In this document: positions 5,373-60,969 of the stretch, in pieces
Layout: each line of letters starts with the position of its first letter
Numbering within the stretch: position 1 is the stretch's first letter
Assembly: GCF_900104245.1 (NCBI RefSeq)
Contig: NZ_FMXN01000001.1
Span: 62,001 to 126,000, forward strand
DNA length: 64,000 nucleotides
Direction of reading: 5' to 3'
Source of the DNA: Pseudidiomarina indica
GTDB taxonomy: Bacteria; Pseudomonadota; Gammaproteobacteria; Enterobacterales; Alteromonadaceae
Notes under the pieces: model-generated
Databases searched by the model: none
Seen by the model: the letters and a program-made list of their open reading frames with translations, nothing else
What the model was told of the DNA's origin: nothing
Made by a program: the position numbers and the translations under genes

Positions 5373-5404
5373 AAGTTAGCGCACCTCCATTCCTGCCAAT
5401 CACA

Positions 5405-7744: not shown

Positions 7745-7785
7745 GAGGCACATCCATATTCTGTCGTTAATTATTCTGTAGAGAG

Positions 7786-8004: not shown

Positions 8005-8676
8005 CTATGACCAGAGTTGAAGTAATTCGAGGGGGTGGTGAATGTGCTTGTCAGCTCCCCATTGTGCCGGTTGGTCGTCCTCACTGAGATACCCATAGGC
8101 GGCTAACACGGTGGTCATTTGAGCGCGTTGACCGGCTTCAATATCGCGTTGTGCATCGCCCACATACCAGCACTGTTGCGCTGGAATCGCGAGTTGCTCA
8201 GCGGCGAAGAGGAGAGGTTCAGGATGTGGTTTCGCCACCGCCAGGGTATCGCCACTAACCACCACCTCAATGGCCGCCAGTTGTGGGAAGTAGGGCAGCA
8301 ATTGGTTGGTCAGCGCGCTGGGCTTGTTGGTGACAATGGCCACCGCAATCTGTTGTTCGACCAGCTTGTTGAGCAAGTGAGATACGCCATCGAACAGCCG
8401 CGTATGTTTCGCAATCGCCGTGGAGTACGCGGTTAAAAATGCGCGGCGCAGTTCTTCTTGGCGCGCGTCAAACTCTTCACCGAAAGCGTGCTTTAATAAG
8501 CGCACCGAACCATGGGACGCCAGCGGGGTGTATTCTTTTGCGGTCACTTCAGGACGTTGTTCCGCCCGCAGCACAGCATTCAGTGCCGCACCTAAGTCGG
8601 GGGCGGTATCCAATAAGGTGCCGTCCAGATCGAACAGAACGGCACGAGGTGGGGTTAAGCTGGTTTGCGTAAACAT
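8005..8676 (-). CDS. HAD-superfamily phosphatase, MupP/Gph type
   Basis: HAD subfamily IA phosphatase of 223 residues. Motif I is FDLDGTLLDT (nucleophile Asp), motif II is VTNKPS, and the motif III/IV region is KPHPEPL followed by VGDAQRDIEAG. Gph removes phosphate from 2-phosphoglycolate; MupP acts on N-acetylmuramate 6-phosphate. Its length, the C-terminal GYLSEDD..WGAD..HPLEL pattern and its place directly after ubiG near gyrA resemble Pseudomonas mupP more than E. coli gph. The exact substrate cannot be fixed from sequence alone. It overlaps the ubiG 3' end by 22 bases. Confidence 0.85.
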   Translation of the reverse strand: MFTQTSLTPPRAVLFDLDGTLLDTAPDLGAALNAVLRAEQRPEVTAKEYTPLASHGSVRLLKHAFGEEFDARQEELRRAFLTAYSTAIAKHTRLFDGVSHLLNKLVEQQIAVAIVTNKPSALTNQLLPYFPQLAAIEVVVSGDTLAVAKPHPEPLLFAAEQLAIPAQQCWYVGDAQRDIEAGQRAQMTTVLAAYGYLSEDDQPAQWGADKHIHHPLELLQLWS

Positions 8677-9365
8677 ACGATATAGTTGACATCCACGTTG
8701 TTGGAATCAAGGTAGAAACCACGCCAAGGCAAGTAATGAATACCTGTCATTGCAAATGGCTCAAGCCCAGCCGCATCGGTCATCCGTAATAATTCGGCCG
8801 GTTGGATAAACTTTTGGTGTTGATGGGTACCTTTGGGAACCCAGCCCAGCACGTACTCAGCAGCCACAATCCCCAGTAACCATGATTTAATGTTGCGGTT
8901 CAGCGTCGAGAAAAAGACATAACCACCGGGTTTCACGGCATCCGCTGCGGCTTGTACAATGGCGTTTGGGTCAGGCACATGCTCAAGCATTTCTAAGCAG
9001 GTGACCAAATCAAACTGCGCCGGATGGGCCGCCGCAAACTGCTCGGCAGCAATCAGCTGATAGTCAATCGTCAGCTGGCTTTCGAGGGCGTGTAAGCGGG
9101 CAACTTGCAGGGCTTGCTCGGCTAAATCAATGCCGGTTACCTGAGCACCAGCCTGGGCTAAGCCTTCGCTGACCAAACCGCCACCACAGCCGATATCAAG
9201 GGCAACTTTACCGAACACACCGTCACATTGTTGGGCGATATAATCGAGTCGTAACGGGTTGATTAAGTGCAGGGGTTTAAACTCACCTTGCGGATCCCAC
9301 CAACGGGATGCGATGACACTAAATTTCTCAATTTCAACAGGATCTACATTCGATTTATAAGTCAT
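8655..9365 (-). CDS. ubiG: Ubiquinone biosynthesis O-methyltransferase UbiG
   Basis: SAM-dependent methyltransferase carrying out both O-methylations in ubiquinone synthesis. The SAM-binding motif I is LDIGCGGGLVSEGLA, and the family signatures WWDPQGEFKPLHLINPLRLDYI and EMLEHVPDP are present. The start at 9365 (MTYKSNVDPVEIEKF) matches the family; the in-frame ATG at 9413 adds 16 residues with no counterpart. It is 236 residues long (E. coli 240). It diverges from gyrA, a common arrangement in Gammaproteobacteria. Confidence 0.95.
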   Translation of the reverse strand: MTYKSNVDPVEIEKFSVIASRWWDPQGEFKPLHLINPLRLDYIAQQCDGVFGKVALDIGCGGGLVSEGLAQAGAQVTGIDLAEQALQVARLHALESQLTIDYQLIAAEQFAAAHPAQFDLVTCLEMLEHVPDPNAIVQAAADAVKPGGYVFFSTLNRNIKSWLLGIVAAEYVLGWVPKGTHQHQKFIQPAELLRMTDAAGLEPFAMTGIHYLPWRGFYLDSNNVDVNYIVCLRKPA

Positions 9366-9504
9366 AGGGCTTCTGCTACGGCCAAAAAGTCGGTACAGTG
9401 TACTCAACCTCACAAGATAAAAAAAGATGCGAGAGTGGCCTGCTACGGGTACAATGCGCTATTAGACGATAATAAAGAAGACCAGAGCTTTTAGGGATAT
9501 AACG

Positions 9505-12162: not shown

Positions 12163-12166
12163 CGCC

Positions 12167-13249
12167 ATGAGTGCCCCGTTTAATTTTTCTGCGGGGCCGG
12201 CCATGTTGCCGGCAGAGGTCATGCAACAAGCCCAAGAGGAATTCCTCAATTGGAACCAATTGGGCATTTCCGTGATGGAAATTAGTCATCGGGACCCGGT
12301 GTTTGTACGAATGGCGGAGCAAGCCGAGCAAGATTTGCGTGAGCTGATGGCCATTCCAGAAAATTACCGAGTGTTGTTTATGCACGGTGGTGGGCGCGGA
12401 CAGTTTACCGCTGTGCCGCAAAATATCGCCGGTCCAGAAGACACGGTTGATTATCTTGACAGTGGCATTTGGTCGGAATTTGCCATTCGTGAGGCGAAAA
12501 AGTACGTCAAGCACGTCAATGTGGTGGCGGGTGCGGTAACCACCGAACAAGGGAAAGCCATTGCTGCGGTCAACGATTGGCAGCTTTCGCCTCAAGCCGC
12601 TTATTTTCACTATTGTCCCAATGAAACTGTGGATGGGATTGCACTGCACGGTGTACCGGATGTGAACGTTCCCATCGTCGCAGATATGTCCTCTAATATC
12701 TTATCGGAGCCCCTCGATGTGAGCCGCTTTGGCGTGATTTACGCTGGTGCTCAAAAAAATATTGGGCCATCGGGATTTGCGATAGCGATTGTGCGTGATG
12801 ATTTATTAGGTCGAGCCCAAGGGAATACCTCCACCATCATGGATTACACGGTGCAAGCCGCTGAAAACTCCATGTATAACACGCCCAATACCTTTGCTTG
12901 GTACTTGGCTGGGTTGGTCTTTCAATGGCTAAAACGTCAGGGTGGGGTTGCCGCTATGGGCCGTCTCAACCAGGCCAAAGCTGCGAAGTTATACGATTAT
13001 ATTGATCAATCATCGTTTTACCGTAATCCCGTTCATCCAGCATATCGTTCCATGATGAACGTACCGTTTTTGTTGGCTGATGAAGCACTGAATGATGCAT
13101 TTTTGGCGCAAGCCGAAGCTGCGGGGTTGCTGGGCCTGAAAGGGCATCGTTTTGTGGGCGGGATGCGAGCTAGTATCTACAACGCGATGCCGATGGCTGG
13201 CATTGATGCCTTGATCGAGTTTATGCGTGAGTTTGAGCGAAACGCCTAA
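12167..13249 (+). CDS. serC: Phosphoserine aminotransferase
   Basis: PLP-dependent transaminase converting 3-phosphohydroxypyruvate to phosphoserine; it also serves pyridoxal 5'-phosphate synthesis. The family start [15 protein letters not shown] fits ATG 12167, four bases after the gyrA stop. The open frame extends further upstream inside gyrA but that part is not conserved. The PLP lysine is in [12 protein letters not shown], and GGGRGQF binds phosphate. It is 360 residues, against 362 in E. coli. It begins a run with hisC and aroA, so it belongs to an amino-acid biosynthesis cluster. Confidence 0.96.
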
Positions 13250-13291
13250 CCATAAAAAATAATAATTATCCAGAACAACAAGTAGGTCATC

Positions 13292-14392
13292 ATGAGTTCA
13301 TTTAAAGCAGTTGATTTAGCGAACCCAGGTGTTCGTACCTTAAGCCCTTATCAAGCGGGCAAACCCATTGAAGAAGTTGAGCGGGAGCTGGGCATCAAAA
13401 ATATCATTAAACTGGCGTCCAACGAAAATCCATTAGGCTTGAGTCGCCAAGTGAAAGCGGCCTTGCAAGAGACGCTGGCCGGGTTAGCTCGTTATCCTGA
13501 TGCCAACGGCTTCTATTTAAAATCAAAATTAGCAGCCAAGCATCAGGTGGCAGCGAATCAAATCACCTTGGGTAATGGCTCCAATGATGTGTTGGAACTG
13601 GTCGCGCGCACCTACGTCAGCGCCGATCATGAAGTAATTTTTGCGCAGCACGCATTCGTAGTTTACCCTTTGGTCACGCAAGCCATTGGCGCAACCGGTG
13701 TGGCCGTACCAGCAAAAAATTATGGGCATGATTTGCCGGCCATGCTGCAAGCCATCACGCCGCGCACGCGGATGATCTTTATTGCCAACCCCAACAACCC
13801 AACAGGCACCTTTTTAACGGCCAGCGAGCTGTATGAATTCTTACAGCAAGTGCCAGCCAATGTGCTGGTGGTGTTGGATGAAGCCTATTATGAATACGTG
13901 GACGAAGCCGAGCGTGCCCCTTCCATTCAATGGATTGCGGAGTTCCCGAATTTAGTGGTGTGTCGCACGTTCTCGAAAGCCTACGGGTTAGCGGGGTTAC
14001 GAGCGGGTTATGCGGTGACTCATGCGGATGTTGCCGATTATATGAACCGGGTACGACAGCCGTTTAATATGAATAGCTTGAGTTTGAAAGCTGCCGAAGT
14101 GGCGTTGGATGATGTCGAGTATTTGGCGGAATCCATTCGCTTGAACCAATTAGGGATGGCGCAACTGGTAGAGTTTTGTGAGAGCAAAGGGCTGCCTTAT
14201 ATTCCGTCCCATGGCAACTTTTTAACCATTGAAGTGGGCGATAACGCGGCAAAAATCTATCAGCAGCTGCTGCAAGCTGGCGTCATTGTTCGGCCGGTTG
14301 CGGGCTATGAATTACCGCGGCATTTACGCGTTAGTATTGGTTTGAAACATGAGAACCAAGCCTTTATCGATGCGATGTCAGCGCTGTTGTAA
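13292..14392 (+). CDS. hisC: Histidinol-phosphate / aromatic aminotransferase (HisC2 type)
   Basis: Class I/II PLP aminotransferase of 366 residues. Visible motifs are KLASNENPLG, NPNNPTG, the DEAYYEY aspartate and the PLP lysine in RTFSKAYGLAGLRAGY. The family makes histidinol phosphate. Copies placed between serC and aroA (HisC2) are thought to transaminate prephenate or aromatic keto acids, which would suit its place here. No other his gene is in the window, which also favours the second role. It follows serC by 42 bases. Confidence 0.88.
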   Translation: MSSFKAVDLANPGVRTLSPYQAGKPIEEVERELGIKNIIKLASNENPLGLSRQVKAALQETLAGLARYPDANGFYLKSKLAAKHQVAANQITLGNGSNDVLELVARTYVSADHEVIFAQHAFVVYPLVTQAIGATGVAVPAKNYGHDLPAMLQAITPRTRMIFIANPNNPTGTFLTASELYEFLQQVPANVLVVLDEAYYEYVDEAERAPSIQWIAEFPNLVVCRTFSKAYGLAGLRAGYAVTHADVADYMNRVRQPFNMNSLSLKAAEVALDDVEYLAESIRLNQLGMAQLVEFCESKGLPYIPSHGNFLTIEVGDNAAKIYQQLLQAGVIVRPVAGYELPRHLRVSIGLKHENQAFIDAMSALL

Positions 14393-14413
14393 CCCTGACA
14401 AGAAGGTGGCAGT

Positions 14414-15724
14414 GTGAATACCGAGTGGGCTGAAATTACCTTAAAAAACCTACGCCAATGCCAGGGAGAAGTGATTTTGCCTGGCTCTAAAAGCATTGCG
14501 AACCGCGCGTTGCTAATGGCTGCGTTGTGTGACCAAGGGCAACGAACCACGCTCACTAACGTTCTACGTAGCGATGACACCGACCGCATGATCGAAGCAT
14601 TGCAAGCGCTCGGGGTTCGGTTAGAAGTTGAGTCGGCGACCAGCACCACCGTGCATGTGCATGGCTGTGGCGGACATTGGCCGCAGCAGCCGGCAGAACT
14701 TGATTTAGGCAATGCCGGAACGGCGATGCGGCCGTTGTTGGCGGTATTGAGTGCCACGTGGCAGGCCGACGCTCGAATCACCTTAACCGGCGACGCTCGT
14801 ATGCAAGAACGTCCCGTTGCGGCATTGGTTGATGCCTTAGTGCAGGGCGGCGCGCCACTTCAATGTTCGTCTCAGTGGGGCTATCCACCGGTTCGTATCG
14901 CCGCTGGGTTACAAGGCGGCACCTTTACTATTGATGGCTCCGCATCAAGCCAATATATCTCTGCGTTACTCATGGCCCTACCATTATTGCCACAAGATTC
15001 CGTCCTACGGTTAGTTGGGGAAGTGGTATCGCGTCCATACATTGAATTGACCTTGGCCATGTTAGCCCGCTTTGGCATTGATATTATCGTGCAAAACGAC
15101 CATCAATTCCTGATCGCTGGAGGCCAACGTTATCAAAGCCCAGGTCACTATTGGGTGGAAGGGGATGCCAGTGCTGCATCCTATTGGTTGGCTGCCGCTG
15201 CCATTGCGGGCGGACCGCTCACGATTCGTGGTGTGGGACGGTTAAGTATTCAAGGGGATGTGGCCTTTGCCGATTGCGTGGCACAGATGGGCGCCAAGGT
15301 TACTATCCATGACGAATACATTGAAGTGGAAGGGGCGGCCTTGTACGCTCTCGATGCCGACTATAATGCCATTCCCGATGCCGCCATGACCATGGCCACT
15401 TTAGGCTTGTTCGCGACTGGCACCACGCACATTCGTAACGTTGCCAACTGGCGGATTAAAGAAACCGACCGCTTGGCGGCAATGGCCACTGAGTTGCGCA
15501 AAGTGGGGGCGCAAGTCGAAGAAACTGCCAGTAGCATTCATATTACGCCCCCCGCCGAGCTTCGTCATGGCGTGATTGATACCTATCATGACCACCGCAT
15601 GGCAATGTGCTTTGCCTTGTTGGGTTTCAGCAACGCTGGAGTGACCATTCGTGATCCGTTGTGCTGTGCTAAAACCTATCCGACATTCTTCGACGAATTA
15701 CTGCGTTTAACCGCAGCTGAGTAA
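14414..15724 (+). CDS. aroA: 3-phosphoshikimate 1-carboxyvinyltransferase (EPSP synthase)
   Basis: Sixth step of the shikimate pathway, joining shikimate 3-phosphate and PEP. Recognisable motifs are LPGSKSIANRALLMAAL (substrate-binding Lys and Arg), LGNAGTAMRPL and the C-terminal IKETDRL and DHRMAM segments. Protein length is 436 residues. The first codon is GTG at 14414 with an AAGGTGG ribosome binding site 5 bases or so upstream, giving MNTEWAEITL. It lies 21 bases after hisC and probably shares its transcript. Confidence 0.95.
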   Translation: MNTEWAEITLKNLRQCQGEVILPGSKSIANRALLMAALCDQGQRTTLTNVLRSDDTDRMIEALQALGVRLEVESATSTTVHVHGCGGHWPQQPAELDLGNAGTAMRPLLAVLSATWQADARITLTGDARMQERPVAALVDALVQGGAPLQCSSQWGYPPVRIAAGLQGGTFTIDGSASSQYISALLMALPLLPQDSVLRLVGEVVSRPYIELTLAMLARFGIDIIVQNDHQFLIAGGQRYQSPGHYWVEGDASAASYWLAAAAIAGGPLTIRGVGRLSIQGDVAFADCVAQMGAKVTIHDEYIEVEGAALYALDADYNAIPDAAMTMATLGLFATGTTHIRNVANWRIKETDRLAAMATELRKVGAQVEETASSIHITPPAELRHGVIDTYHDHRMAMCFALLGFSNAGVTIRDPLCCAKTYPTFFDELLRLTAAE

Positions 15725-15749
15725 GCTTATTCACCTATCCTTAACCAAA

Positions 15750-15782
15750 TTGAGATGCAATTTTTTACTAAAAACGTATAAT
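15750..15782 (+). promoter_or_regulatory. Possible promoter for cmk-rpsA
   Basis: A perfect -10 hexamer TATAAT lies at 15777-15782, 30 bases before the cmk start. The best upstream match, TTGAGA at 15750-15755, is 21 bases away, longer than ideal, so the -35 assignment is weak. The AT-rich gap after aroA suggests a new transcription unit begins here. Confidence 0.45.
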
Positions 15783-15811
15783 TGCGGCGCTCATTCTTGG
15801 TAGGGGACCCC

Positions 15812-16513
15812 ATGAATAAAAACATTCCAGTGATTACCATCGACGGACCTAGTGGTGCCGGTAAGGGAACTGTTTGTCGCTTGTTAGCCGAGCAGTTAGG
15901 CTGGCATCTGTTGGACAGCGGAGCGATTTATCGCGTGTTGGCATTAGCTGCAATTCACCATGGCTTTGCTGCGGATGACGAAGAAAGTTTAGCAGCCTTA
16001 GCAGGGACTCTGGATGTCAAATTTGATGTGGAAGAAAACCCAGCGCTAACGCACATTATTTTAGAAGGCGAAGATGTGACCATGGCCATTCGCACCCAAG
16101 AAGTAGCGAACATGGCGTCTAAAGTAGCTGCTTTACCGCGAGTTCGGGAAGCGTTGCTACGCCGCCAACGTGCCTTTAAAGAACTGCCAGGATTGGTGGC
16201 CGATGGGCGCGATATGGGAACCGTGGTGTTCCCGGATGCTGCGGCCAAAATTTTCTTAACGGCCAGTGCTGAAGAACGTGCCGAACGTCGCTTTAAGCAA
16301 TTGCAGGAAAACGGAATCGATGCTAAAATTGACCAATTAATCACCGAGATTCGTGAGCGTGATGAACGTGACACGAATCGCTCTGTTGCTCCTTTGCGGG
16401 CGGCAGAAGGTGCACTTTACATTGATTCGACAGATTTAAGTGTCGAGCAAGTCATGGATCAAATTTTGCAGTTTGCCCACGGTAGACTGACACAAACTGA
16501 GACAGGCACCTAA
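15812..16513 (+). CDS. cmk: Cytidylate kinase
   Basis: Phosphorylates CMP and dCMP. The P-loop is [11 protein letters not shown] at residues 9-19, DSGAIYR and [11 protein letters not shown] are the nucleoside-binding and lid-associated motifs, and RDERDTNR is near the C-terminus. The start at 15812 follows a GGTAGGGGACCCC leader with a good ribosome binding site; 10 extra residues upstream in the same frame are not conserved. It is 233 residues long. cmk precedes rpsA as in most proteobacteria. Confidence 0.95.
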
Positions 16514-51910: not shown

Positions 51911-51924
51911 CTTATTAAATTTGT

Positions 51925-51969
51925 TGGTCGGCGTGATAGGATTTGAACCTACGACCCCTGACACCCCAT
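51925..51969 (-). repeat. Displaced 3' part of tRNA-Pro (attL)
   Basis: Minus-strand sequence equals the 3' 45 bases of tRNA-Pro: 3' half of the anticodon loop and stem, variable loop, T-arm GTAGG-TTCAAAT-CCTAT, acceptor CACGCCG, A and CCA. The 5' half is missing. The last 18 bases (51952-51969) are identical to 60920-60937 in the intact tRNA and define the crossover core. The T-stem differs from that of the intact gene by compensatory changes. Confidence 0.88.
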
Positions 51970-52075
51970 AGCTGCCACGTCGAATGGCTGAAAGCCGCAT
52001 AAATAAAGGGTTTGACCAGTATTTATAAGGGCTGCAGCTTGATTGGTGATTGCTTTTAATGTTACCGTTTGTAGC

Positions 52076-52139
52076 TTGATGTAGCCATTTATTGCGTTAT
52101 ACTGGCTACATATCGGCTACACGGAATAAGGCGGCTACA
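52076..52139 (+). promoter_or_regulatory. Integrase promoter flanked by integrase arm-type repeats
   Basis: TTGATG (52076-52081) and TATACT (52098-52103), 16 bases apart, form a likely promoter. The heptamer GGCTACA occurs at 52104, 52115 and 52133, and as its complement TGTAGCC at 52080. GGCTACATATCGGCTACACG (52104-52123) recurs exactly at 60799-60818 near the other end, as arm sites of a tyrosine integrase do. The overlap suggests the integrase limits its own transcription. Confidence 0.65.
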
Positions 52140-53542
52140 TGAAAACTTCAATCAGTACCACAGCAGCGAACCAGTTTGCTAAGACAGCAAGCGAGCGCCA
52201 GCAACTATCATGCAAAGTTATAAAAGGCTTTCACTTGCTACGCTTGAAATGCGTTTCATCGTGGCGTTATCGGTACACTGACGCGGCAGGAAAGCGCAAG
52301 ACGCTAACTATTGGTGAATACCCAGCATTAAAGCCACAGGAAGCCGCGCAAATCGCCCTAGAATGGCGCGTAGGGATCACAAAGGGCGAAGCTGACCCGA
52401 TTGCTAAGCGGCAAGCGATAGCAGCGCAGAAACGCGCACAGGAGCAGCTGCAAGCACAGAGAGAAAACCTAAAGCTAGGGCGCTTTTTTGAGCATTACAG
52501 CAAAGTGCTAAAAGACAGCCCGGACGTGCTAGGCAAAATTAGCCTTGCTTTTAGTTTTCTGTTTGAGCGTGACATGGACATGATAACGCCACACGACATA
52601 GATAAATGGTATCAAGAAAAACGCGAAGCTGGGCTAAAGCGTTCAACCCTTGTGGGCTACTTTGGTGCATTAAAAGCTATGCTCAATTATGCCGCTGGCA
52701 CTAAAAAAGGCCAGTCAAACCATGAGCCAGTTTTAACGGTGAACCCATTAGCCGGGTACACGTTGCCACAGCTAACCAAAGAGGAACGCAAAGCACTGCG
52801 CCAAGAAGATAATAAAATGATGGCCATGCGCGACATATTCAGCCCCGAAGTAAAGGCCGCCATTCTCAAAGGGCTAGATAGCTACGCAGAGGAATTAAGA
52901 GCCAAGCGCCGCCGTAGTTTACGCCTTGCAAAAAACCAGCACTTACCCAGCCTTGATGATGTGGCTTTTCCGCATTGGTTTATACCATTCACGCAAATAG
53001 CCATGATGACAGGCATGCGCCCCGGTGATATTTACGCCCTTAGATGGGAAAACCTTGATCACAACCCTTTTAACGGCAAGTACACGCTAATTTATACGCC
53101 GAAGAAAACAGAGCATAAAGGTGATGACCCGATAAAGGTAATCTTTAATTTAGGCACACAGCACCCCCTTATTGATACGCTGACGACTTGGCGCAAACAG
53201 CAAGGCAACCCAAAGACCGGGCTTATATTCCCGTCCGAGCGCGTTAGCGGTGAGATGGATAGAAAAGCCCACCTAAAGCACTGGAAGCACGTTAAAGAGC
53301 TTGGCGGCGTTCCTGATGGGCTGCAGTTCTATTCATTCCGTCATAACTTTATCAGCGACTTAGTACGCAAAGGGAAATCACCAGAGCTTATTCGTAAGCT
53401 AGTAGGCCACGCTGACACCAGCATGATTACTAAAAACTACATGAGAACGGACGATCACGACATGGAAGCATTAACCGCGCTTGCAGCCGATAGCTGGGGC
53501 AATCATACAACAAGCCCGGCTAAGGCCGTGGGGGGCGAATGA
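52139..53542 (+). CDS. int: Tyrosine integrase
   Basis: Site-specific recombinase of 467 residues that integrates the element at tRNA-Pro. The N-terminal 90 residues are an arm-binding domain (WRYRYTDAAGKRKTLTIGEYPAL), followed by a core-binding domain. Catalytic residues are visible: Arg in TGMRPGDIYALRW, Arg in FYSFRHNFISDL (the usual first His of the HxxR box is Tyr), His in LVGHAD and nucleophile Tyr in TKNYMR. AAGG lies 8 bases before ATG 52139. The next gene overlaps the stop by 4 bases. Confidence 0.93.
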   Translation: MKTSISTTAANQFAKTASERQQLSCKVIKGFHLLRLKCVSSWRYRYTDAAGKRKTLTIGEYPALKPQEAAQIALEWRVGITKGEADPIAKRQAIAAQKRAQEQLQAQRENLKLGRFFEHYSKVLKDSPDVLGKISLAFSFLFERDMDMITPHDIDKWYQEKREAGLKRSTLVGYFGALKAMLNYAAGTKKGQSNHEPVLTVNPLAGYTLPQLTKEERKALRQEDNKMMAMRDIFSPEVKAAILKGLDSYAEELRAKRRRSLRLAKNQHLPSLDDVAFPHWFIPFTQIAMMTGMRPGDIYALRWENLDHNPFNGKYTLIYTPKKTEHKGDDPIKVIFNLGTQHPLIDTLTTWRKQQGNPKTGLIFPSERVSGEMDRKAHLKHWKHVKELGGVPDGLQFYSFRHNFISDLVRKGKSPELIRKLVGHADTSMITKNYMRTDDHDMEALTALAADSWGNHTTSPAKAVGGE

Positions 53543-53973
53543 TGAATAACGAGCAGTTAAAGGAAAGCCTTTTACAGTTAAATTTAGAAGAAGCAATAAA
53601 AATGCTGACCCAGTATGGCGATAAACAGCCCCTAATCGATATTGGTAAAACCGATATGCTGCGAATAGCCAGCCACGACAAAGGCCATGAGCTTTTAATG
53701 AGGGCTTTAGATGGTCAAAGGCTAGGTAAAGAGGGGCGCGGAGCAGCCAAACAGCAGCCAACAGAAATAAAGCACCTAGAAATACTTTGCTATTTGTATT
53801 TTCTCAAAGGGCAAGGCGTACCTATTAAGGGAGAGTACAAAAACGGGAAAGAAACAGCTTTTCAGTTAGCCGCAGACAAGTTCCATAAGTCTGAAAGCCA
53901 AATCGGGGCTATATGGAAAAAGCGCAAAGAAACACTGAAACATATCGCGTTATTCAACCGCGAAAACAATTAG
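53539..53973 (+). CDS. Hypothetical protein coupled to the integrase
   Basis: Protein of 144 residues starting at ATG 53539 inside the integrase stop (ATGATGA; ATG 53542 is equally possible). The first 35 residues are helical and leucine-rich. The end (AFQLAADKFHKSESQIGAIWKKRKET) looks like a helix-turn-helix, so DNA binding is possible. No family is recognised. Tight coupling with the integrase hints at a role in element control or excision, which is inference. Confidence 0.7.
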   Translation: MMNNEQLKESLLQLNLEEAIKMLTQYGDKQPLIDIGKTDMLRIASHDKGHELLMRALDGQRLGKEGRGAAKQQPTEIKHLEILCYLYFLKGQGVPIKGEYKNGKETAFQLAADKFHKSESQIGAIWKKRKETLKHIALFNRENN

Positions 53974-54003
53974 GGGTTACTAATTAGCTTAATTGATAAC
54001 CCC
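53973..54003. repeat. Imperfect inverted repeat between the integrase unit and alpA
   Basis: GGGGTTA...TAATTA and TAATT...TAACCCC pair over about 13 positions with a 3-base loop and one mismatch. No T-run follows. Its place just before the alpA-type gene suits an operator or a weak terminator. Confidence 0.5.
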
Positions 54004-54064
54004 ACGAATAAGGTAGCCAAATTGAAAAACTAGCCATGTAACAACCAGCAACTAGAGGTTAAAC

Positions 54065-54265
54065 ATGGCTACTACCAACCCCACACCAGCAAGCGATTTA
54101 TTGCGGCCTGAACAGGCCGCTAACTTTCTGAATATGCACCGGGTAACGCTTCACCGATTAAGTGAACGTGATCCAACATTCCCACGAAAAATAAAAGCCA
54201 GTGCGCGCCTTTGCTATTACCGCAAAAGCGAATTAGAAGCATGGCTAGCAAGTCGGGAGGTGTAA
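54065..54265 (+). CDS. AlpA-family transcriptional regulator / excisionase-like
   Basis: Protein of 66 residues with the MerR-like AlpA helix-turn-helix: LLRPEQAANFLNMHRVTLHRLSERDPTFPRKI, then the wing YYRKSELEAWLASR. AlpA proteins activate the integrase or replication genes of P4-like elements, and related Xis proteins direct excision. AGAGG lies before the ATG. The next gene begins 1 base after the stop. Confidence 0.88.
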   Translation: MATTNPTPASDLLRPEQAANFLNMHRVTLHRLSERDPTFPRKIKASARLCYYRKSELEAWLASREV

Positions 54266-54266
54266 C

Positions 54267-54581
54267 ATGGAATTTACCGTTCCCGATAGCTACGACCTAC
54301 GCCCAAGTCGCCGCAAGTGGCTTAAAGAAGCAATGAAGCTTAAGAACGCAAATTCAGCACTTTTGAGTTTTATTGTTTGTCGTTTAAGTGCTGGAAATTT
54401 GACGCTTAAAACAATCCTCAAACTTTGTTCAAAGCAGGGCTTTACACCTAGCGAAGCCCGACACGCTCTAGGGCGCTTAATGGAAGCTGGCTTGATCGAA
54501 TACAGCCATATTGAGCCTGATATTTTCGTGAGCTTTAACGAAGCTGGCAAGAAGTTCGCGCAGGAGGTGGGTAATGAGTAA
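54267..54581 (+). CDS. Winged-helix-like DNA-binding protein, unnamed
   Basis: Protein of 104 residues. The middle (TLKTILKLCSKQGFTPSEARHALGRLMEAGLIEY) reads as a winged helix, with the recognition helix at SEARHALGRLMEAG and a wing ending EPDIFVSFNEAG. A regulator or replication accessory protein is likely but no family is recognised. GGGAGG precedes the ATG, and the gene overlaps the next by 8 bases. Confidence 0.7.
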   Translation: MEFTVPDSYDLRPSRRKWLKEAMKLKNANSALLSFIVCRLSAGNLTLKTILKLCSKQGFTPSEARHALGRLMEAGLIEYSHIEPDIFVSFNEAGKKFAQEVGNE

Positions 54582-54819
54582 CAGCACCGTAAAAGCCTTT
54601 CTAAAGCGAATCAATACTACTGATCACTTCTGCGACACCAAAGCAGCGCAAAGCACCCTAGATGCGCTTCTGAAGGCTCAACAGTCTTTCTACTGTCACA
54701 GCAACAGCGGCAACGCAAAAGCCGCACATGATGCTTGGAAGAACGTAGAAATGCTGGCGTATGAAGTGGAACAGCTTGTTCTCGGTGGCGTGATCGAATT
54801 GTACGAGGGGGACGAATAA
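54574..54819 (+). CDS. Hypothetical small acidic protein
   Basis: Protein of 81 residues, largely helical, with an acidic end (IELYEGDE). AGGAGGTGG precedes ATG 54574 inside the previous gene, and the TAA shares one base with the next ATG, so the three genes 54267-57335 are translated as a coupled set. No family is recognised. Confidence 0.7.
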   Translation: MSNSTVKAFLKRINTTDHFCDTKAAQSTLDALLKAQQSFYCHSNSGNAKAAHDAWKNVEMLAYEVEQLVLGGVIELYEGDE

Positions 54820-57335
54820 TGTACACACAAAAAAAAGCCCCGGCGGCAACCGAGGCTCAATGCAAAGAGGTAAACTTTGATAGTTCAAATATTAACCTAT
54901 GTTCGGGCTTTGGGCAATTCCACAGCACCAATAATAAGCGCGAGCCAAAGCCCTACGTAGGGATCACACTTGCACAGGTGGCCGATATGCTCGCGACCCC
55001 ACCAAGTACGGCTAAAGAGCATGGCCAATGGGCTATTTTCTCGAACCTTGCGAGCCGTGACGTTATCGAGCAGCGCAATAGTGGCGAGTTTTACGCGCTA
55101 TGGGCTGACATTGACGATCCAGACGGTAAACCTTTCAAAGATATGTTTAGCCTTGCTTGTAAGGTGCTAGGCGTTGATTTGATGGGCTACACCAGCCGCA
55201 GTGCTACCGAGGATAAGCAGAAATGCCGCTTCATTGTTCCGCTGGCGCACCCGGTGAACGGTAACGACTTTGAGATCATGCAAAAGATACTCAATGACAA
55301 GTTAGAAGCCGCTGGAATAGCACCAGACCGCAAAACTGAAACCGCTAACCAGATTTGCTACCTACCGAACAAAGGCGAGTTTTACGACTTTATGGAAAAC
55401 CCATTTAGCGGCCTGTTATCGGTTGATAGCTGGGGCGATGAGTTCCACGCAGAGCTAGAAGCCCTAGAAGCTGCAGAGCGCGAACGTAAGCAACGCTTAG
55501 AGCAAAGCAAGCGTAAGGCATACGAGCGTATGCAAAGCGGCGTAAAAAGCCCGATAGAAGCCTTTAATGCGGCCTATAGCGCCGTAGATTTACTACCCGG
55601 CTATGGTGGCAAGGTTAAAGGCAATCGAGCCGTATCGCCCTTGTCTGAAAGCGGCAACTACCAAATTCAGATACAGCCGGACGGTAAGCTATTAAGCCAC
55701 CACGGTAGCGACATGGAAGCCGGAATAGGGAAGCTCACCCAAAGCAACAAAGCCCGGCTAATTGATGCTTGGGATTTATTCAAGTTCTTTGAGCATGGCA
55801 ACGATGAAGCCGCAGCACTTAAAGCCGCTGGCGCTATGTTCAAGGACGAAAACGGCGTAAGTATTACCAAGCAAAACCAGCGCGACTACATGGCAAACCA
55901 GAGCGCAAGCCCAGAAGCTATTGCAGCGGTTAAGGCTATGTTTGATAAGGCCGAGGACGAACCAAGCGAACAGTTAGAACCACCTAGCCCAGCTGATGTT
56001 GATATAGACAATCCCCCGGGGCTTGCTGGCGATATATGCCGCTTAATGCAACTCGAAGCGCGGCGGCTACGCCCAGAGCTTTACCCCCTTGCGGCGCTTC
56101 ACTTAATGGCGCTAATGGGGCGCAAGCGCAAAAGCGTTTACACAAGCAAGCTAAACCTAATAACGCTAGGCATAGCTGAAACTGCAGCCGGAAAGGAAAC
56201 GGCGCAGAACGTTATTAAAAAGCTGGCTAACGATATGTACGCTTCACGCTATATTCACGGCAACGCTGGCAGCTTTAAGGATTTAATCGAAAACCTTATT
56301 GAGGGCGAAGGCACTAGCCTTTATATCGTTGACGAAATCCACAGCTTTCTAGACTCAATGAAAAGCCAAAAGGCGGCAACCTATGAAACCAAAATGGAAG
56401 CCGAAATATTGGTAATGAGCAGCACCGAGCTTTACACGTTCCGAGGTATGGAAAAGCGCCAAATACTCAAAACCAAAAGCAAGGACGTAAGCGAACTAGA
56501 AAACAAGCTAGATAAGCTGGGCGACAATGACAGCGAAGAAAAGCGCAAGCTAGAACGTGCGCTAGAAAAGACTAAGCTAGTTATTGAGTACCTGAAAAAT
56601 GGCTGGCCTGATCCGTTTTTCTCAATCATGGGGCATAGCGTACCAGATCGGCTAGATAGCTTTGCAAGCCTTGAAAACATAGCCAGCGGCTTCATTGGTC
56701 GAACCATAATAAGACGTTGCCCAGAACGCCGCGAGAAGCTACGCAGAACGCAATTAAACAGCGCAGAAGTGGCTAGATTGCATGGCGCAATAATCTGGGG
56801 CTTTGAGCAAATGCAAGCCAGCCACGGCGTGGTAGACGTTACACCAGAAGCCGAAGCCTACTTAAATGCTTGCGTGGATTGGTACGACGACGACGACCAG
56901 CTAAACCATTCAATAGTAGGCGGCGTTTACGCCAGAGCGCCAGAGCAGCTATTTAAGGTGGCAAGCATACTAGGGCTGGACGGTGGCACGATCACGCTAG
57001 AACACGCCAAATACGCCCACGCTTTGGTAAAAAACTCGGTTGATGATGTTAAGTACCTTATTCTTAAGTCATACGCCGAACGTGCCGAAGCTGGCGAGGT
57101 CGAAATAATGGCAGCCGCTAAGCAAACCGTTCTACGCAACTGTAAAGGGCAAGGCCTAGCACCTAGCAAACTTAGGGAAAAGGTAAGCAAGCCCAAAAGC
57201 TGGCAGCAATTACAACAAGCGAACCAAAAGCGCGACTATTTCCAAGAGCTAATAGAACGCTTGTTACAATCCGGTGAGCTTGAGCTAATAGAAAACGGTC
57301 GGCGGCAGCGATACGTTTCAAGGGCGGTAGTTTAA
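54819..57335 (+). CDS. Primase/helicase-like replication protein (DUF3987-like)
   Basis: Protein of 838 residues, probably the element's replication initiator. The first 230 residues contain ALWADIDDPDGKPF and KCRFIVPLAHPV, like the acidic and basic motifs of archaeo-eukaryotic-type primases. The second half is an ATPase domain resembling DUF3987/YfjI proteins: a Walker A variant ETAAGKET near residue 455 (usual Gly replaced) and Walker B SLYIVDEIHSFL near 500. The layout recalls phage P4 alpha, which joins primase, helicase and origin binding. A terminator and a repeat-rich candidate origin lie directly downstream. Confidence 0.82.
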   Translation: MYTQKKAPAATEAQCKEVNFDSSNINLCSGFGQFHSTNNKREPKPYVGITLAQVADMLATPPSTAKEHGQWAIFSNLASRDVIEQRNSGEFYALWADIDDPDGKPFKDMFSLACKVLGVDLMGYTSRSATEDKQKCRFIVPLAHPVNGNDFEIMQKILNDKLEAAGIAPDRKTETANQICYLPNKGEFYDFMENPFSGLLSVDSWGDEFHAELEALEAAERERKQRLEQSKRKAYERMQSGVKSPIEAFNAAYSAVDLLPGYGGKVKGNRAVSPLSESGNYQIQIQPDGKLLSHHGSDMEAGIGKLTQSNKARLIDAWDLFKFFEHGNDEAAALKAAGAMFKDENGVSITKQNQRDYMANQSASPEAIAAVKAMFDKAEDEPSEQLEPPSPADVDIDNPPGLAGDICRLMQLEARRLRPELYPLAALHLMALMGRKRKSVYTSKLNLITLGIAETAAGKETAQNVIKKLANDMYASRYIHGNAGSFKDLIENLIEGEGTSLYIVDEIHSFLDSMKSQKAATYETKMEAEILVMSSTELYTFRGMEKRQILKTKSKDVSELENKLDKLGDNDSEEKRKLERALEKTKLVIEYLKNGWPDPFFSIMGHSVPDRLDSFASLENIASGFIGRTIIRRCPERREKLRRTQLNSAEVARLHGAIIWGFEQMQASHGVVDVTPEAEAYLNACVDWYDDDDQLNHSIVGGVYARAPEQLFKVASILGLDGGTITLEHAKYAHALVKNSVDDVKYLILKSYAERAEAGEVEIMAAAKQTVLRNCKGQGLAPSKLREKVSKPKSWQQLQQANQKRDYFQELIERLLQSGELELIENGRRQRYVSRAVV

Positions 57336-57337
57336 TC

Positions 57338-57363
57338 AAAGGGGGCGTAAAGCCCCTTTTTTT
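57338..57363 (+). terminator. Rho-independent terminator after the replication gene
   Basis: GGGGC (57342-57346) and GCCCC (57352-57356) pair around GTAAA, with flanking A and T runs extending the stem, followed by seven T. It closes the alpA-replication transcript 3 bases after the stop. Confidence 0.82.
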
Positions 57364-57370
57364 GTGTTTA

Positions 57371-57644
57371 ACGTTCTACCGTTCCCCAACTTTCTACCAA
57401 CTCGGGGGAACGTACAGCCCTTATCTAGCCTAGCTTTGGGGCTAACTTTCTACTTTCTACCAAAAACCTAAGACAAATAAAAAAGCACAAATAATTGGAA
57501 GAAAAAAATAGGAATTATCTATATTGGTAGAAAATAAGGCTTTACCCCTTTATTTATAAGGCTTTGACGTTCCCCCAAGACGGTAGAACGTGGTAGAAAA
57601 TAAGCCCTAAAGCCTTATATGGCGCGGCCTTGACGTTCCCCCAA
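57371..57644. other. Candidate replication origin with two sets of short repeats
   Basis: TTCTACC occurs three times on the plus strand (57374, 57392, 57455), then three times as its complement GGTAGAA (57526, 57582, 57592), around an AT-rich stretch (57462-57525). A second motif, CGTTCCCC(C)AA, occurs at 57380, 57568 and 57634, and inverted at 57404. Iterons beside an AT-rich segment next to a replication gene are typical of origins such as P4 ori. The rest of this gene-free stretch, 57645-57832, shows nothing I can name. Confidence 0.65.
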
Positions 57645-57832
57645 CCAAGCTGGGCTAAAACAGAGCAGAACACCGAGCGAGTAAAGGGGGAAAATATCCA
57701 GCCTCAGAACCCGACTACCCCCTAAAAATGACCCAAAACACCCTGTAACTAGCGCCCCCTGTCTGTAAATGGCAGTTTGTAACGCTTTCAACCTATTGTA
57801 TTTATTGTTTTTGTTGTTTCTGTTTGTAGTCG

Positions 57833-57852
57833 TGTAGCCAATATGTAGCCAA
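57833..57852. repeat. Inverted copies of the integrase arm-type heptamer
   Basis: TGTAGCC occurs at 57833 and 57844, the complement of the GGCTACA motif found at both ends of the element, with the same 11-base spacing. It lies about 50 bases before the packaging genes and may let the integrase or a regulator control them; AT-rich hexamers (TAAAAT at 57860) could be a promoter -10. Confidence 0.5.
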
Positions 57853-57898
57853 TTAGCGCTAAAATATAAGGCATATACCAACCAAATAGGCGGCAATT

Positions 57899-58009
57899 AT
57901 GAGCAAAGCAGACCTAAAAGAAGTAGCACTTCATTCATTCTTTGGCCTTGTCATTGGCGCGTCATTCGTTGCAATCACGACTGCAGCCGTTGTGGTGTTC
58001 AGCGCATGA
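57899..58009 (+). CDS. 36-residue membrane peptide
   Basis: A short frame encodes 36 residues: an amphipathic start MSKADLKEVALHSF and one membrane segment GLVIGASFVAITTAAVVV ending FSA. The TGA overlaps the next ATG (ATGA), so it looks translated and coupled to the packaging genes. AGGCGG lies 6 bases before the ATG. Its small size and membrane nature resemble phage holin-like or superinfection peptides, but no function can be assigned. Confidence 0.55.
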   Translation: MSKADLKEVALHSFFGLVIGASFVAITTAAVVVFSA

Positions 58010-58359
58010 GCAAGACCCGCACCCCACCAGAGAAGTTTACCGCTAACTGGCTGCAGTCATTGGACAAGCGCACCGCCGTTGCACAAGAGCTACAACAGCG
58101 CCATAAGTTGCTAACCGATGACTTAGGCGGCATCGACCAGTTGAGCTACCAGCAACGCGCATTAGTTGAACGTGCCTTGTGGCTTGAATATCACTTGCAA
58201 CAGGAAGAACAAAAACTAGCCAGCGGCCAAGAGTTCGACAGCGGCAAGTGGACGCAATCATGCAACGCCTTGCAAGGTATTCTCACCAAGCTAGGGCTAA
58301 ACCGAGTAGCCAAGACGATCCCAGCGCTGCAGACCTACGTTAAAGGCGGTGGCAAATGA
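58006..58359 (+). CDS. Possible terminase small subunit
   Basis: Protein of 117 residues, mostly helical, directly upstream of the large terminase and overlapping it by 4 bases (ATGA). It contains DDLGGIDQLSYQQRALVERALWLEYHL and a C-terminal SCNALQGILTKLGLNRVAKTI segment. Position and size fit a small terminase subunit, which selects DNA for packaging. No clear N-terminal helix-turn-helix is seen, so the call rests mostly on context. Confidence 0.55.
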   Translation: MSKTRTPPEKFTANWLQSLDKRTAVAQELQQRHKLLTDDLGGIDQLSYQQRALVERALWLEYHLQQEEQKLASGQEFDSGKWTQSCNALQGILTKLGLNRVAKTIPALQTYVKGGGK

Positions 58360-59750
58360 ATATCATCGAAGCCATGCACGATGAGAACTTATTTGCTCAC
58401 CAGTTCAGCGGTGAAAGCTGGCGTGCTTGGCGCGTTCTGCTTAGCGCGTTCTATGGCTTGCCGATTGCTGATGATGACCTAGCACTATATCAAGAGCTAA
58501 CCGGCCGCCAGAAGCCACCAGAAGCCCCTCACAACGAGTTATGGCTACCAGTTGGAAGAAGGGGCGGAAAATCGAATACAGCGGCTTTAATCGCCGTTTA
58601 TGAAGCCTTTTTTAATGACTATTCAGACAAGCTGGCTGCAGGTGAAGTAGCCACGGTGATGGTAATTGCCGCCGACCGCAAGCAAGCGCGTTCAGTGATG
58701 CGTTACATTCGCGGCCTTGTGGACGGTAGCCCGATGTTAAAGCAAATGGTGCTGCGCGAAACAACAGAATCCATCGAGTTGGTAAACCGTTGCGTTATCG
58801 AGATCACAACCGCGAGCATGAGAGCAACGCGAGGTTATACGGCCAGTTGCATTATTGCCGATGAAATAGCGTTTTGGTTGACCGATGGGGCGAACCCTGA
58901 CAAGGAAATCATCAACGCTTTGCGCCCCTCGCTGGCCACCTTGAACGGCAAGTTGATTGCGCTTAGCTCACCGTATGCGCGGCGCGGTGTACTTTGGGAA
59001 AATTACCGCCGTTACTTTGGCAAGGACAACCAGCGCGTGCTAGTTGCTCAAGCGCCCACGTTGACGATGAACCCCACGCTATCGCCTGAAATAGTTGCAG
59101 CGGCCTATGAGGAAGACGCGCAAGCAGCATCGGCAGAATACGGCGCACAGTTCCGTAGTGACGTTGAAAGCTATATCAGCCGCGAAGCCGTGGAAGCGGT
59201 AACAATCCCAGACCGCTACGAGTTAGCGCCAGCGAGTTCAAATCATTACTTTGCATTCGTTGATGCGGCTGGCGGCAGTGGCAAAGACGCTATGACGTGC
59301 GCGATTGCTCACCAAGATAAAGAAATCATCATAGTTGACGTGCTGCGCGTGATGAAACCGCCGTTCAGCCCTGAATATGTGGTTGAGCAGTTCTGCGACC
59401 TACTCAAGATGTACCGCATTAACTATGTAGTTGGCGACCGTTGGGGCGGTGACTTTGTGCGCGAACAGTTCACCAAGCGCGGCATTTACTACGAGTTAAG
59501 CGAAAAGAACAAATCAGAGATTTACGGCGAGATGTTGCCGCTTATCAATTCCAAGCGCGTGGAGTTGCCAGATCACAAACAGTTATTTGATGAGCTAGTC
59601 GGACTTGAGCGCAAGACTAGTTCAACAGGTAAAGACCGCATCGACCATGCACCGGGCATGCACGATGACGCAGTGAACGCCGTTGCTGGTGTTTGCGTGG
59701 TAGCCAGTCAATACAGACCCTACTGCGCCGCACCTAGAATCGGCTTTTAA
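58356..59750 (+). CDS. Phage terminase large subunit
   Basis: DNA-packaging motor of 464 residues with both domains intact. ATPase: Walker A LPVGRRGGKSNTA near 66, Walker B CIIADEIAFW near 167 and a coupling SSPYARRG motif near 207. RNase H-like nuclease: AFVDAAGGSGKD near 301, VVGDRWGGDF near 360 and MHDDAVNAVAG near 436. In phages this protein docks on a portal, but none is encoded in the element, so packaging would need another phage's procapsids. It follows the possible small subunit and precedes a coiled-coil protein. Confidence 0.9.
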   Translation: MNIIEAMHDENLFAHQFSGESWRAWRVLLSAFYGLPIADDDLALYQELTGRQKPPEAPHNELWLPVGRRGGKSNTAALIAVYEAFFNDYSDKLAAGEVATVMVIAADRKQARSVMRYIRGLVDGSPMLKQMVLRETTESIELVNRCVIEITTASMRATRGYTASCIIADEIAFWLTDGANPDKEIINALRPSLATLNGKLIALSSPYARRGVLWENYRRYFGKDNQRVLVAQAPTLTMNPTLSPEIVAAAYEEDAQAASAEYGAQFRSDVESYISREAVEAVTIPDRYELAPASSNHYFAFVDAAGGSGKDAMTCAIAHQDKEIIIVDVLRVMKPPFSPEYVVEQFCDLLKMYRINYVVGDRWGGDFVREQFTKRGIYYELSEKNKSEIYGEMLPLINSKRVELPDHKQLFDELVGLERKTSSTGKDRIDHAPGMHDDAVNAVAGVCVVASQYRPYCAAPRIGF

Positions 59751-59777
59751 TTTTTAATGCAAAATGAGGTTATAACC

Positions 59778-60500
59778 ATGAACAAACGCACCAGAGTAAA
59801 AAGCCCTGTATTCAGTGGCGACATTTTCGAGCGTAATTTAGGCGACTTTGCACAGCGTGACGAAATGCGCGACATAAAGCGCCAGATTGAACGCTTTGGC
59901 CAGTTGGTTGAGGGACTTGCTGAAATGCGCGAGAAGCCCGATCCATTTAAGACACAGGCACAAATTAACGTGGAGTATGGCAAGCGCTACGAAGAAGCAC
60001 TTAGCGCGGCTAAACGAAGCGTTGAAAAGAGCATTGAACGGTTAGTTGACGCACAAGACAAAGCGCGGCGTAACATGATCGTAAAAACCAAACTCGATAG
60101 AGTCGTGCCAGACGCGCAAGAGATACGCGCACACTTGCGAGGTATGACGGACAAGCAGCGCCGCGAGTTTATTGCAAAGTCGATTGATCACGGCCGCTTT
60201 GAGGTTATTTCAGCCATCGTGAACACTAGCCTACCTGAATTGGCTGGCTTAACGCCTGAATTGGTCACACAGTATCAAATGGCATACGTTGAAAAGGTAG
60301 CGCCTGAATACTTGGAAGAAGAAAAAGCAATTCAGACCGCCGAGCAAATGCTAGGCATGGCTTTCGATAGTTTCCGCAAGCAAGCCGAAGAAATGCGCGA
60401 TCCACACTTAGAGGTTGAAGCGATCAAAATGAAAGAGCAAGCAGACGCGGCAGACGCAGCCTTTAAGCAAGCGCTAAATGCTGATGCAAGAGCCGAGTAA
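59778..60500 (+). CDS. Hypothetical coiled-coil protein downstream of the terminase
   Basis: Protein of 240 residues, highly charged and helical, with coiled-coil stretches near residues 30-100 and 180-235. GAGG 9 bases before ATG 59778 favours this start over ATG 59757. Segments GDIFERNLGDFAQRDEM and TDKQRREFIAKSID are distinctive but match no family I know. Its place after the terminase and its helical nature could fit a scaffold- or adaptor-like packaging helper, which is speculation. Confidence 0.7.
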   Translation: MNKRTRVKSPVFSGDIFERNLGDFAQRDEMRDIKRQIERFGQLVEGLAEMREKPDPFKTQAQINVEYGKRYEEALSAAKRSVEKSIERLVDAQDKARRNMIVKTKLDRVVPDAQEIRAHLRGMTDKQRREFIAKSIDHGRFEVISAIVNTSLPELAGLTPELVTQYQMAYVEKVAPEYLEEEKAIQTAEQMLGMAFDSFRKQAEEMRDPHLEVEAIKMKEQADAADAAFKQALNADARAE

Positions 60501-60783
60501 TGCACCGATAACGAGTGCAGACGTGCTACCAGAGATGAAGCTGGTACGCGCTGCGCTCGACCTTTTCATAAAAGACGCTATCGACTACCTGACAGCTTGT
60601 GAACGGCCACCAGCGAAGTTTAACGAGCTATTCCATGACCAGCAGCAAGCCTTTAACGACTTGTGCCGTTGTGGGCGGATCACGAAGCGCCTTGCTCACC
60701 TGAACGACCTAGACCCGCACTATATCAGTGAGCGCTTTCGTCGTTATGTTCGGCGGTACTATTCAGAACAACAGCCCGGCTAG
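60478..60783 (+). CDS. Hypothetical protein, last gene of the element
   Basis: Protein of 101 residues (99 if ATG 60484 is used), overlapping the previous gene by 23 bases. It is helical with a basic end ERFRRYVRRYYSEQQPG and the segment FHDQQQAFNDLCRCGRITKRL. No family is recognised. It ends 15 bases before the right arm-type repeats. Confidence 0.62.
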   Translation: MLMQEPSNAPITSADVLPEMKLVRAALDLFIKDAIDYLTACERPPAKFNELFHDQQQAFNDLCRCGRITKRLAHLNDLDPHYISERFRRYVRRYYSEQQPG

Positions 60784-60798
60784 TATGTAACGTAAAAC

Positions 60799-60818
60799 GG
60801 CTACATATCGGCTACACG
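60799..60818. repeat. Right arm-type repeat of the element
   Basis: GGCTACATATCGGCTACACG is an exact 20-bp copy of 52104-52123, near the other end, in the same orientation. Each copy holds two GGCTACA motifs spaced 11 bases apart. It lies about 100 bases inside attR, the usual position for integrase arm sites. Confidence 0.7.
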
Positions 60819-60842
60819 TTATAAAAAAATATTCTAAGAAAT

Positions 60843-60874
60843 AAAAAAGGGGCTTGAACAATCGCTCAAACCCC
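60843..60874 (-). terminator. Element-supplied terminator of tRNA-Pro
   Basis: On the minus strand GGGGTTTGAGC and GTTCAAGCCCC pair with two mismatches, followed by six T. It lies 19 bases after the tRNA CCA end, inside the element, and replaces the host terminator now stranded at 51879-51910. Confidence 0.75.
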
Positions 60875-60892
60875 TGATTTATATTGATTTTT

Positions 60893-60969
60893 TGGTCGGC
60901 GTGACTGGATTTGAACCAGCGACCCCTGACACCCCATGACAGTGCGCTACCAAGCTGCGCCACACGCCG
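60893..60969 (-). tRNA. tRNA-Pro (anticodon GGG), host-element hybrid
   Basis: Complete 77-base cloverleaf on the minus strand: acceptor CGGCGTG/CACGCCG, D-arm GCGC-AGCTTGGTA-GCGC, anticodon arm CTGTC-ATGGGGT-GTCAG with anticodon GGG, T-arm GCTGG-TTCAAAT-CCAGT, discriminator A and encoded CCA. It closely resembles E. coli proL. The 5' half is host sequence and everything 3' of the core comes from the integrated element, which rebuilt a functional gene. The T-stem differs by two compensated base pairs from the displaced host copy. Confidence 0.95.
60920..60937 (-). repeat. attR core
   Basis: CGACCCCTGACACCCCAT is identical to 51952-51969. It covers the 3' half of the anticodon loop and stem, the variable loop and the first T-stem base of tRNA-Pro. 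Strand exchange took place within it. Confidence 0.85.

Follow-up and report, generated by a model that had tools for sequence, protein, structure and literature searches.

Gram-negative phage-inducible chromosomal islands (PICIs) such as EcCICFT073 integrate at specific attachment (att) sites and carry, in order, an integrase gene (int), alpA, a primase gene (pri), a replication origin (ori) and late genes (PMC6092414, PMC10111431). They are 10–20 kb long, some have terS, and a capsid gene is present in 21 of the 29 reference ones (PMC10111431). As described, they use the large terminase of the helper phage (PMC6092414, PMC10111431). Their induction by a helper phage goes through AlpA. An island with the same int-alpA-pri order at an att site, the ori part being suggestive only, lies in the 64,000-nt stretch of Pseudidiomarina indica analysed here (assembly GCF_900104245.1, contig NZ_FMXN01000001.1, positions 62,001–126,000 of the forward strand), which we call the window. 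The island differs from the described PICIs in having its own small terminase-like (TerS-like) protein and large terminase (TerL). The initial annotation of the window regarded a satellite that supplies only a motor, and would have to dock on a helper's portal, as following an unusual strategy; in layout, the island matches the Gram-negative PICIs (PMC6092414, PMC10111431). A literature search, which was not exhaustive, found no described satellite with TerL but without a portal; the PICI-like layout is already known, and the terminase without a portal is new as far as the literature could be searched.

Capsid-forming PICIs (cfPICIs) resemble the island in carrying TerS and TerL, and take their tails from the helper, but they also have capsid, protease, portal and connector genes, none of which was matched among the ten proteins of the island (PMC10690885). 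MulchRoom and MiniFlayer satellites likewise encode a small and a large terminase, but unlike the island they have portal and capsid genes and, as described, no recognisable primase (PMC10690885). Phage P4 has an integrase, an AlpA/Vis-like regulator, a primase and a dependence on a helper that the island presumably shares, whereas it is packaged by the terminase of its helper with Sid-type control of capsid size (PMC10690885) and the island has its own TerL. No sid- or psu-type gene was matched among the ten island proteins in the Pfam and PHROG family libraries. The phage-inducible chromosomal minimalist islands (PICMIs) of Vibrionaceae are small, like the island, with int, AlpA and primase genes and no capsid-remodelling genes; they lie beside fis with no packaging gene identified, whereas the island is at tRNA-Pro and has TerL (PMC10803314). 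PICMI DNA enters helper particles in the form of a concatemer (PMC10803314). A tailed prophage would be expected to have portal, capsid, tail and lysis genes, which were not matched in the window. The DNA of the islands called virion-encapsidated integrative mobile elements (VEIMEs; Eppley, 2022) is reported to occur in marine virions as concatemers.

The island is probably a PICI-like integrative phage satellite whose own terminase docks on the portal of a helper. It spans 51919–60937, from attL to the tRNA-Pro gene, with repeats 8,968 bp apart. The repeats share an exact 18-bp block at 51952–51969 and 60920–60937, whose outer ends are the limits that the initial annotation had given for the element with its matching att cores in tRNA-Pro. 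At attR, the repeat makes up the 3′ half of a tRNA-Pro(GGG) gene that is intact. Ten genes and a 36-aa membrane open reading frame (ORF) are all on the + strand. The features are listed below, with coordinates as window positions (1 is the first letter) and L-numbers (L009, L010 and so on) for the loci of relatives.

51919–51969: attL, duplicated 3′ half of tRNA-Pro, direct repeat (46 of 51) of 60887–60937, exact core 51952–51969
52104–52121, + strand: GGCTACA-N4-GGCTACA site before int, putative AlpA or integrase arm site
52139–53542, + strand: tyrosine integrase, 467 aa (PF00589, 1.2e-16; Arm-DNA-bind_3, 1.4e-11; phrog_1, 1.8e-40)
53539–53973, + strand: orf2, 144 aa, no assigned function, no family match; a 150–230 aa gene is at the equivalent place in many relatives
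54065–54265, + strand: AlpA-type regulator, 66 aa (PF05930, 1.3e-6; HTH_17, 3.5e-8)
54267–54581, + strand: orf4, 104 aa, no assigned function; homologue 38% identical in L009/L010 and 35% in L011
54574–54819, + strand: orf5, 81 aa, no assigned function; homologue 79% identical in Aliidiomarina L014
54819–57335, + strand: primase/helicase-like replication protein, 838 aa (PHROG DNA primases, best 3.5e-50)
57336–57898: candidate origin region after the primase gene, with six TTCTACC copies
57833–57850, − strand: GGCTACA-N4-GGCTACA, inverted copy upstream of the packaging operon
57899–58009, + strand: 36-aa ORF with one membrane span, overlapping the start of the TerS-like gene; similar ORF in L010 and L011
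58006–58359, + strand: TerS-like protein, 117 aa, directly before TerL; conserved, no family match
58356–59750, + strand: TerL, 464 aa, complete in its ATPase and nuclease residues (phrog_2, 5.6e-26)
59757–60500, + strand: ORF9, 247 aa, putative accessory protein of packaging or of the virion; homologues 3′ of TerL in relatives
60478–60783, + strand: ORF10, 101 aa, no assigned function; 49% identical in L009/L010, also in L011, L017 and L022, and weakly in L062
60799–60816, + strand: GGCTACA-N4-GGCTACA, right-end copy
60887–60937: attR, within tRNA-Pro, 46 of 51 direct repeat of attL
60893–60969, − strand: tRNA-Pro(GGG), intact target gene (Rfam match 60896–60969)

The integrase, AlpA, primase/helicase-like protein and TerL named in the initial annotation are in open reading frames and have family matches; the replication protein, which it also listed as DUF3987, matches the PHROG DNA primases and has no Pfam DUF3987 match. 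The proteins of orf2, orf4, orf5, the TerS-like gene, ORF9 and ORF10 have no above-threshold match in Pfam or PHROG; a single sub-threshold PHROG match of orf4 to "terminase small subunit" (E 0.065) was disregarded. The reported lack of portal, capsid, tail and lysis genes is borne out by these two libraries, which gave no match to such families among the ten window proteins at E 0.1. The island had been described as a satellite with only a motor; a motor of its own and the lack of capsid genes are supported, and TerL is joined by the TerS-like gene before it and by two further conserved genes, ORF9 and ORF10, after it.

Related islands occur elsewhere, a point on which the initial annotation had staked its reading: used to scan genomes, a four-row alignment of TerL yielded 136 relatives, and a scan of viral contigs yielded 55. 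We examined 81 loci, the best 80 of the 136 genome relatives and the window. Elements were called bounded where exact repeats of at least 14 nt lie on either side of TerL and overlap a tRNA, which is the case in 41 of the 81; among the remaining 40 are short contigs as well as loci that have no tRNA repeat. The bounded elements have repeats of 14–63 nt and sizes of 8.6–18.0 kb (median 10.4 kb), and occupy 14 kinds of tRNA gene in several bacterial phyla. When the left part of one locus was combined with the right part of another, 0–2 tRNA-overlapping repeats were found per round of at most 81 pairs, compared with 37 for the true pairs counted in the same way. An integrase was matched in 39 of the bounded elements, a TerS-like gene in 30, AlpA in 14, ORF9 in ten (one weak) and a portal in none.

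Hidden Markov models built from three portal groups matched none of the 41 bounded elements and 20 of the 126 loci in the TerL tree, all of them viral contigs. A Pfam scan of 39 bounded relatives at E 1e-5 found no portal family in 150 downstream and 94 upstream genes. After TerL, 153 genes on its strand are 55 aa or longer, and all but three integrases were scanned; before TerL, the scan covered genes on its strand from 120 aa upwards, integrases and TerS excluded. L089, whose TerL was missed by the gene caller, is outside these scans. In the TerL tree, the window belongs to a starred five-row set inside a 39-row clade (Shimodaira–Hasegawa-like approximate likelihood ratio test, SH-aLRT, 98) of 22 att-bounded, 11 integrase-only, six undetermined and no portal-bearing rows. 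The portal rows require six changes on the tree, against a shuffled mean of 18.9; some rows have short flanks, in which a portal could be missed. The tree was built by a quick method, with a root for drawing only, and leaves out copies (L001, L008, L009), near-copies (L113–L115, L122), the distant L139, the short ORF of L007 and loci whose TerL was missed by the gene caller (L038, L085, L089, L101, L119, L140, L141).

The TerL protein contains GRRGGKS, DE and Asp 303/361/437/438, which we assign, by their likeness to known motifs, as Walker A, Walker B and the nuclease residues. In an alignment of the 116 closer rows, 12 portal-bearing ones included, every row filled at these columns keeps the Walker A Lys, the Asp-Glu pair of Walker B and all four nuclease Asp (114–116 of 116). 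Between the window and L010, the nonsynonymous (dN) and synonymous (dS) divergences are 0.23 and 3.8 (saturated) for TerL, and 0.14 and 1.4 for TerS; ORF9 and ORF10 are too diverged for dS. Judged by these substitutions, TerL is under strong purifying selection. The TerS-like protein is 80% identical in L009/L010, and profile searches with it gave no match. A TerS search of the genomes of the family matched seven of 395, and TerL directly follows in all seven; as this search is independent of the selection by TerL, the coupling of the two genes is not a product of construction.

ORF9 belongs to a family found 3′ of TerL in the window, in 17 other loci and weakly in L063 (duplicates merged), with two tandem copies in L011. 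In L102, a viral contig, the gene order is TerS-TerL-ORF9-portal; in L110 it is TerL-ORF9-portal, followed by a 1044-aa tape-measure match. These two may be phages or portal-bearing satellites. Since the ORF9 homologue lies between TerL and a separate portal gene in both, ORF9 probably belongs to a packaging or virion module without being the portal. Profile searches with ORF9 gave weak coiled-coil-type PDB matches (best E 0.032) and four one-member PHROG matches (0.0005–0.007), and neither ORF9, the TerS-like protein nor the L102 ORF9 homologue has a tblastn match in 50,697 phage records.

The slot after TerL varies between elements, being occupied by ORF9, a major capsid protein, a protease or a tape-measure protein. 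Among bounded elements, taken individually or by cluster, L014, L016, L044 and L071 have a major capsid protein, L020, L028, L044 (partial match), L051, L065, L067, L071 and L088 a tape-measure protein, and L057 a DUF2213 protease. Because related elements carry these virion parts, "motor only" is not the rule. A strict absence of virion parts is further contradicted by single Pfam matches to a Pam3_gp18 baseplate plug, a prohead protease S78 and a Gp13-like capsid protein in the 150 downstream genes, for which the PHROG tally covers the first 25 of 138 families, and by a gene of L066 that resembles an internal virion protein with an endolysin domain (2.8e-49). The tape-measure proteins of the bounded islands are about 550–1250 aa long and have few other recognisable tail genes alongside. 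L014, L015 and L016 are near branches with TerS, TerL and an HK97 capsid protein and no portal match. Other cargo of the bounded elements L024, L064 and L066 comprises DNA methyltransferases and the internal-virion-protein-like gene.

We propose that infection by a tailed phage would activate AlpA, and that the island would excise from tRNA-Pro by means of its own integrase and replicate from the region after the primase gene. The TerS-like protein and TerL would be expressed and recognise the island's own concatemers. The island terminase would dock on the portal of the helper, which is plausible, and pump the concatemers into helper-made procapsids, while tail and lysis would also come from the helper. 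ORF9 and ORF10 would probably adapt the assembly of the head or the motor. A private motor would give the island freedom from the packaging signal of the helper, and survival if the helper's own terminase were inhibited. We infer helper induction, encapsidation, the role of ORF9 and the binding of AlpA from sequence.

Several observations weigh against such a satellite. Neither a PF04860 portal nor a PF05065 capsid protein nor a second phrog_2-type TerL was found in the host genome, so a helper would have to come from outside. TerL is distant from isolate phages: seven of the 50,697 phage records match, the best-scoring one with 28% identity. The family was gathered by TerL, which is therefore present by construction. 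The TerS-like protein owes its name to position and conservation alone, 11 of the 41 bounded elements have no TerS match, and AlpA was matched in only the 14 mentioned, small genes being easily missed. A looser 18-mer test for the layout of the GGCTACA sites was passed by only seven of 24 elements for the middle site and eight of 24 for the right-end site.

TerS and TerL could instead act against the helper, as a decoy occupying portals or by cutting helper DNA, and the helper's terminase would then package the island by way of a pac or cos site that the island mimics. Interference with helper packaging is known in satellites, as in Staphylococcus aureus pathogenicity islands (SaPIs), which have a TerS of their own and an interference protein directed against the phage TerS (PMC10690885), and the fit of the island's TerL to a helper portal is itself presumed. 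Nevertheless, we consider this unlikely, as a simple decoy would not need the ATPase and nuclease residues, all of which are kept, and the TerS-like gene and TerL are adjacent in seven of seven genomes. It is less likely still that the island is an ordinary PICI in which the TerS-like protein alone matters and TerL is a passenger. The lone capsid genes of Gram-negative PICIs are indeed dispensable for transfer (PMC10111431), but a passenger would decay, whereas TerL has kept its catalytic residues under strong purifying selection.

The position of ORF9 directly after TerL, where many phages have their portal, and its lack of recognised relatives would suit a cryptic portal or connector, encoded by ORF9 or ORF10, with which the element would build some of its head itself. 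We regard this as very improbable, since L102 and L110 have an ORF9 homologue beside a separate portal gene and 247 aa is small for a portal. The gene orders of L102 and L110 could also mean that the module derives from such an element, and that the island is a prophage remnant after the loss of its structural module. There is hardly any room for this explanation: the compact layout is repeated at the 14 kinds of tRNA gene across phyla, the 39-row TerL clade is devoid of portal rows, and both TerL and TerS are constrained. The low likelihood that the initial annotation gave to a remnant agrees with the bounded relatives scanned, none of which has a full structural module.

The candidate origin proposed earlier is only partly supported. 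Its six TTCTACC copies compare with a shuffle mean of 0.116; the motif was chosen by eye, however, and the commonest heptamer was equally frequent in 15 of 300 shuffles of the region, so that an origin after the primase gene is suggestive only. Three exact copies of GGCTACA-TATN-GGCTACA are present in the window, all inside the island, where 0.02 are expected. We infer that they are AlpA or integrase arm sites that would link excision to the packaging operon. The layout of a left, an inverted middle and a right site recurs in L010, L020 and L032, and an exact 7-mer site test was passed by two of 24 elements.

Parts of the replication protein (54819–57335) resemble proteins of 45–48 kb enterobacterial and Vibrio phages, with 27–36% identity over 40–54% of its length among the ten matches listed of 267. 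It is possible that this likeness hints at the type of helper. ORFs of 33–34 aa similar to the 36-aa ORF are present in L010 and L011, that is, in three of the 68 TerS-like ORFs tested, the window included; the product could be a small membrane effector.

The TerL of an Alteromonadaceae genome is 74% identical and is encoded in the same gene order as in the window, in an element at tRNA-Leu whose integrase and primase do not match those of the window. Prevalence is low: with the P. indica genome included, TerL was found in two of 195 genomes of relatives and four of 369 of the class, and TerS in the seven of 395 of the family. Nine plasmid records match TerL, those of Methylobacterium, Komagataeibacter and, over part of its length, Roseomonas being 48–52% identical. 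L005, L006 and L007 are alphaproteobacterial plasmids with a related TerL (the Roseomonas copy is partial), some of them with a protease or ORF9, and the Komagataeibacter plasmid has a second module with its TerL in two pieces.

Terminal repeats are present in five contigs. L098 (9,705 bp) and L099 (9,338 bp) are related, come from two metagenomes and encode an integrase, AlpA, TerL and a tape measure; a 698-aa gene common to both continues uninterrupted through the junction of the contig ends, which falls at a different point in each. By this reading of the junctions, L098 and L099 are circular or tandem DNA. Both ends of L015 (7,822 bp) lie in a tRNA 3′ end, which fixes the borders of an att-to-att element. 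We do not count it as an excised circle with one attP, as the 51 bp repeated at its termini belong to the tRNA end itself and it could equally be an integrated copy cut at the att repeats. L076, which has no junction-spanning gene, and L111, whose junction ORFs have no known match, were likewise set aside as circles.

The G+C content of the island is not unusual relative to the rest of the window, and its AT skew is 0.12–0.24, compared with −0.13 to 0.14 elsewhere (1-kb steps). The same-genus genomes L155, L156 and L158 have a single tRNA-Pro in about 3 kb, not adjoined by the left neighbour gene of the island, and lend weak support to an empty site. In L157 (G006, 601–16282), of the same genus, a different island of 15.6 kb occupies the same tRNA-Pro. 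It encodes an integrase (42% identity) and has an AlpA-like gene; inspection by eye adds a gene resembling a primase and a type I restriction set, and a TerL search of it gave no match.

We tentatively suggest, as a possibility short of probable, that the island belongs to a large, bacteria-wide satellite family with a portal-less TerS-TerL core. To this core, lineages would add no more than one part or a few, namely a capsid protein, a protease, a tape-measure protein or ORF9, which determine the content or appearance of the helper's particle. Helper virions would in this way be rebuilt piecemeal around a motor that belongs to the satellite and acts on foreign portals. A terminase and its portal are usually thought to be matched, and such a family, if real, would make motor–portal compatibility directly testable. 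The phage-inducible chromosomal island-like elements (PLEs) of Vibrio cholerae similarly provide selected virion parts (TMP, TAC, BhuB) and leave the rest to the helper; as reported in 2026, the tails are chimeric, with tape measure and hub from the PLE and all else from the helper (PMC12987554), so the replacement of virion parts has a tested precedent. The PLE parts are tail parts, and the text of PMC12987554 nowhere uses the words "terminase", "TerL" or "portal". A figure legend of that article shows putative tmp genes in other satellites, and tape-measure genes in satellites are therefore not new (PMC12987554). If true, the proposed family would account for many 9–13 kb islands that sit unlabelled at tRNA genes, and the strategy of PLE tails, "replace one virion part", would reach as far as the DNA motor.

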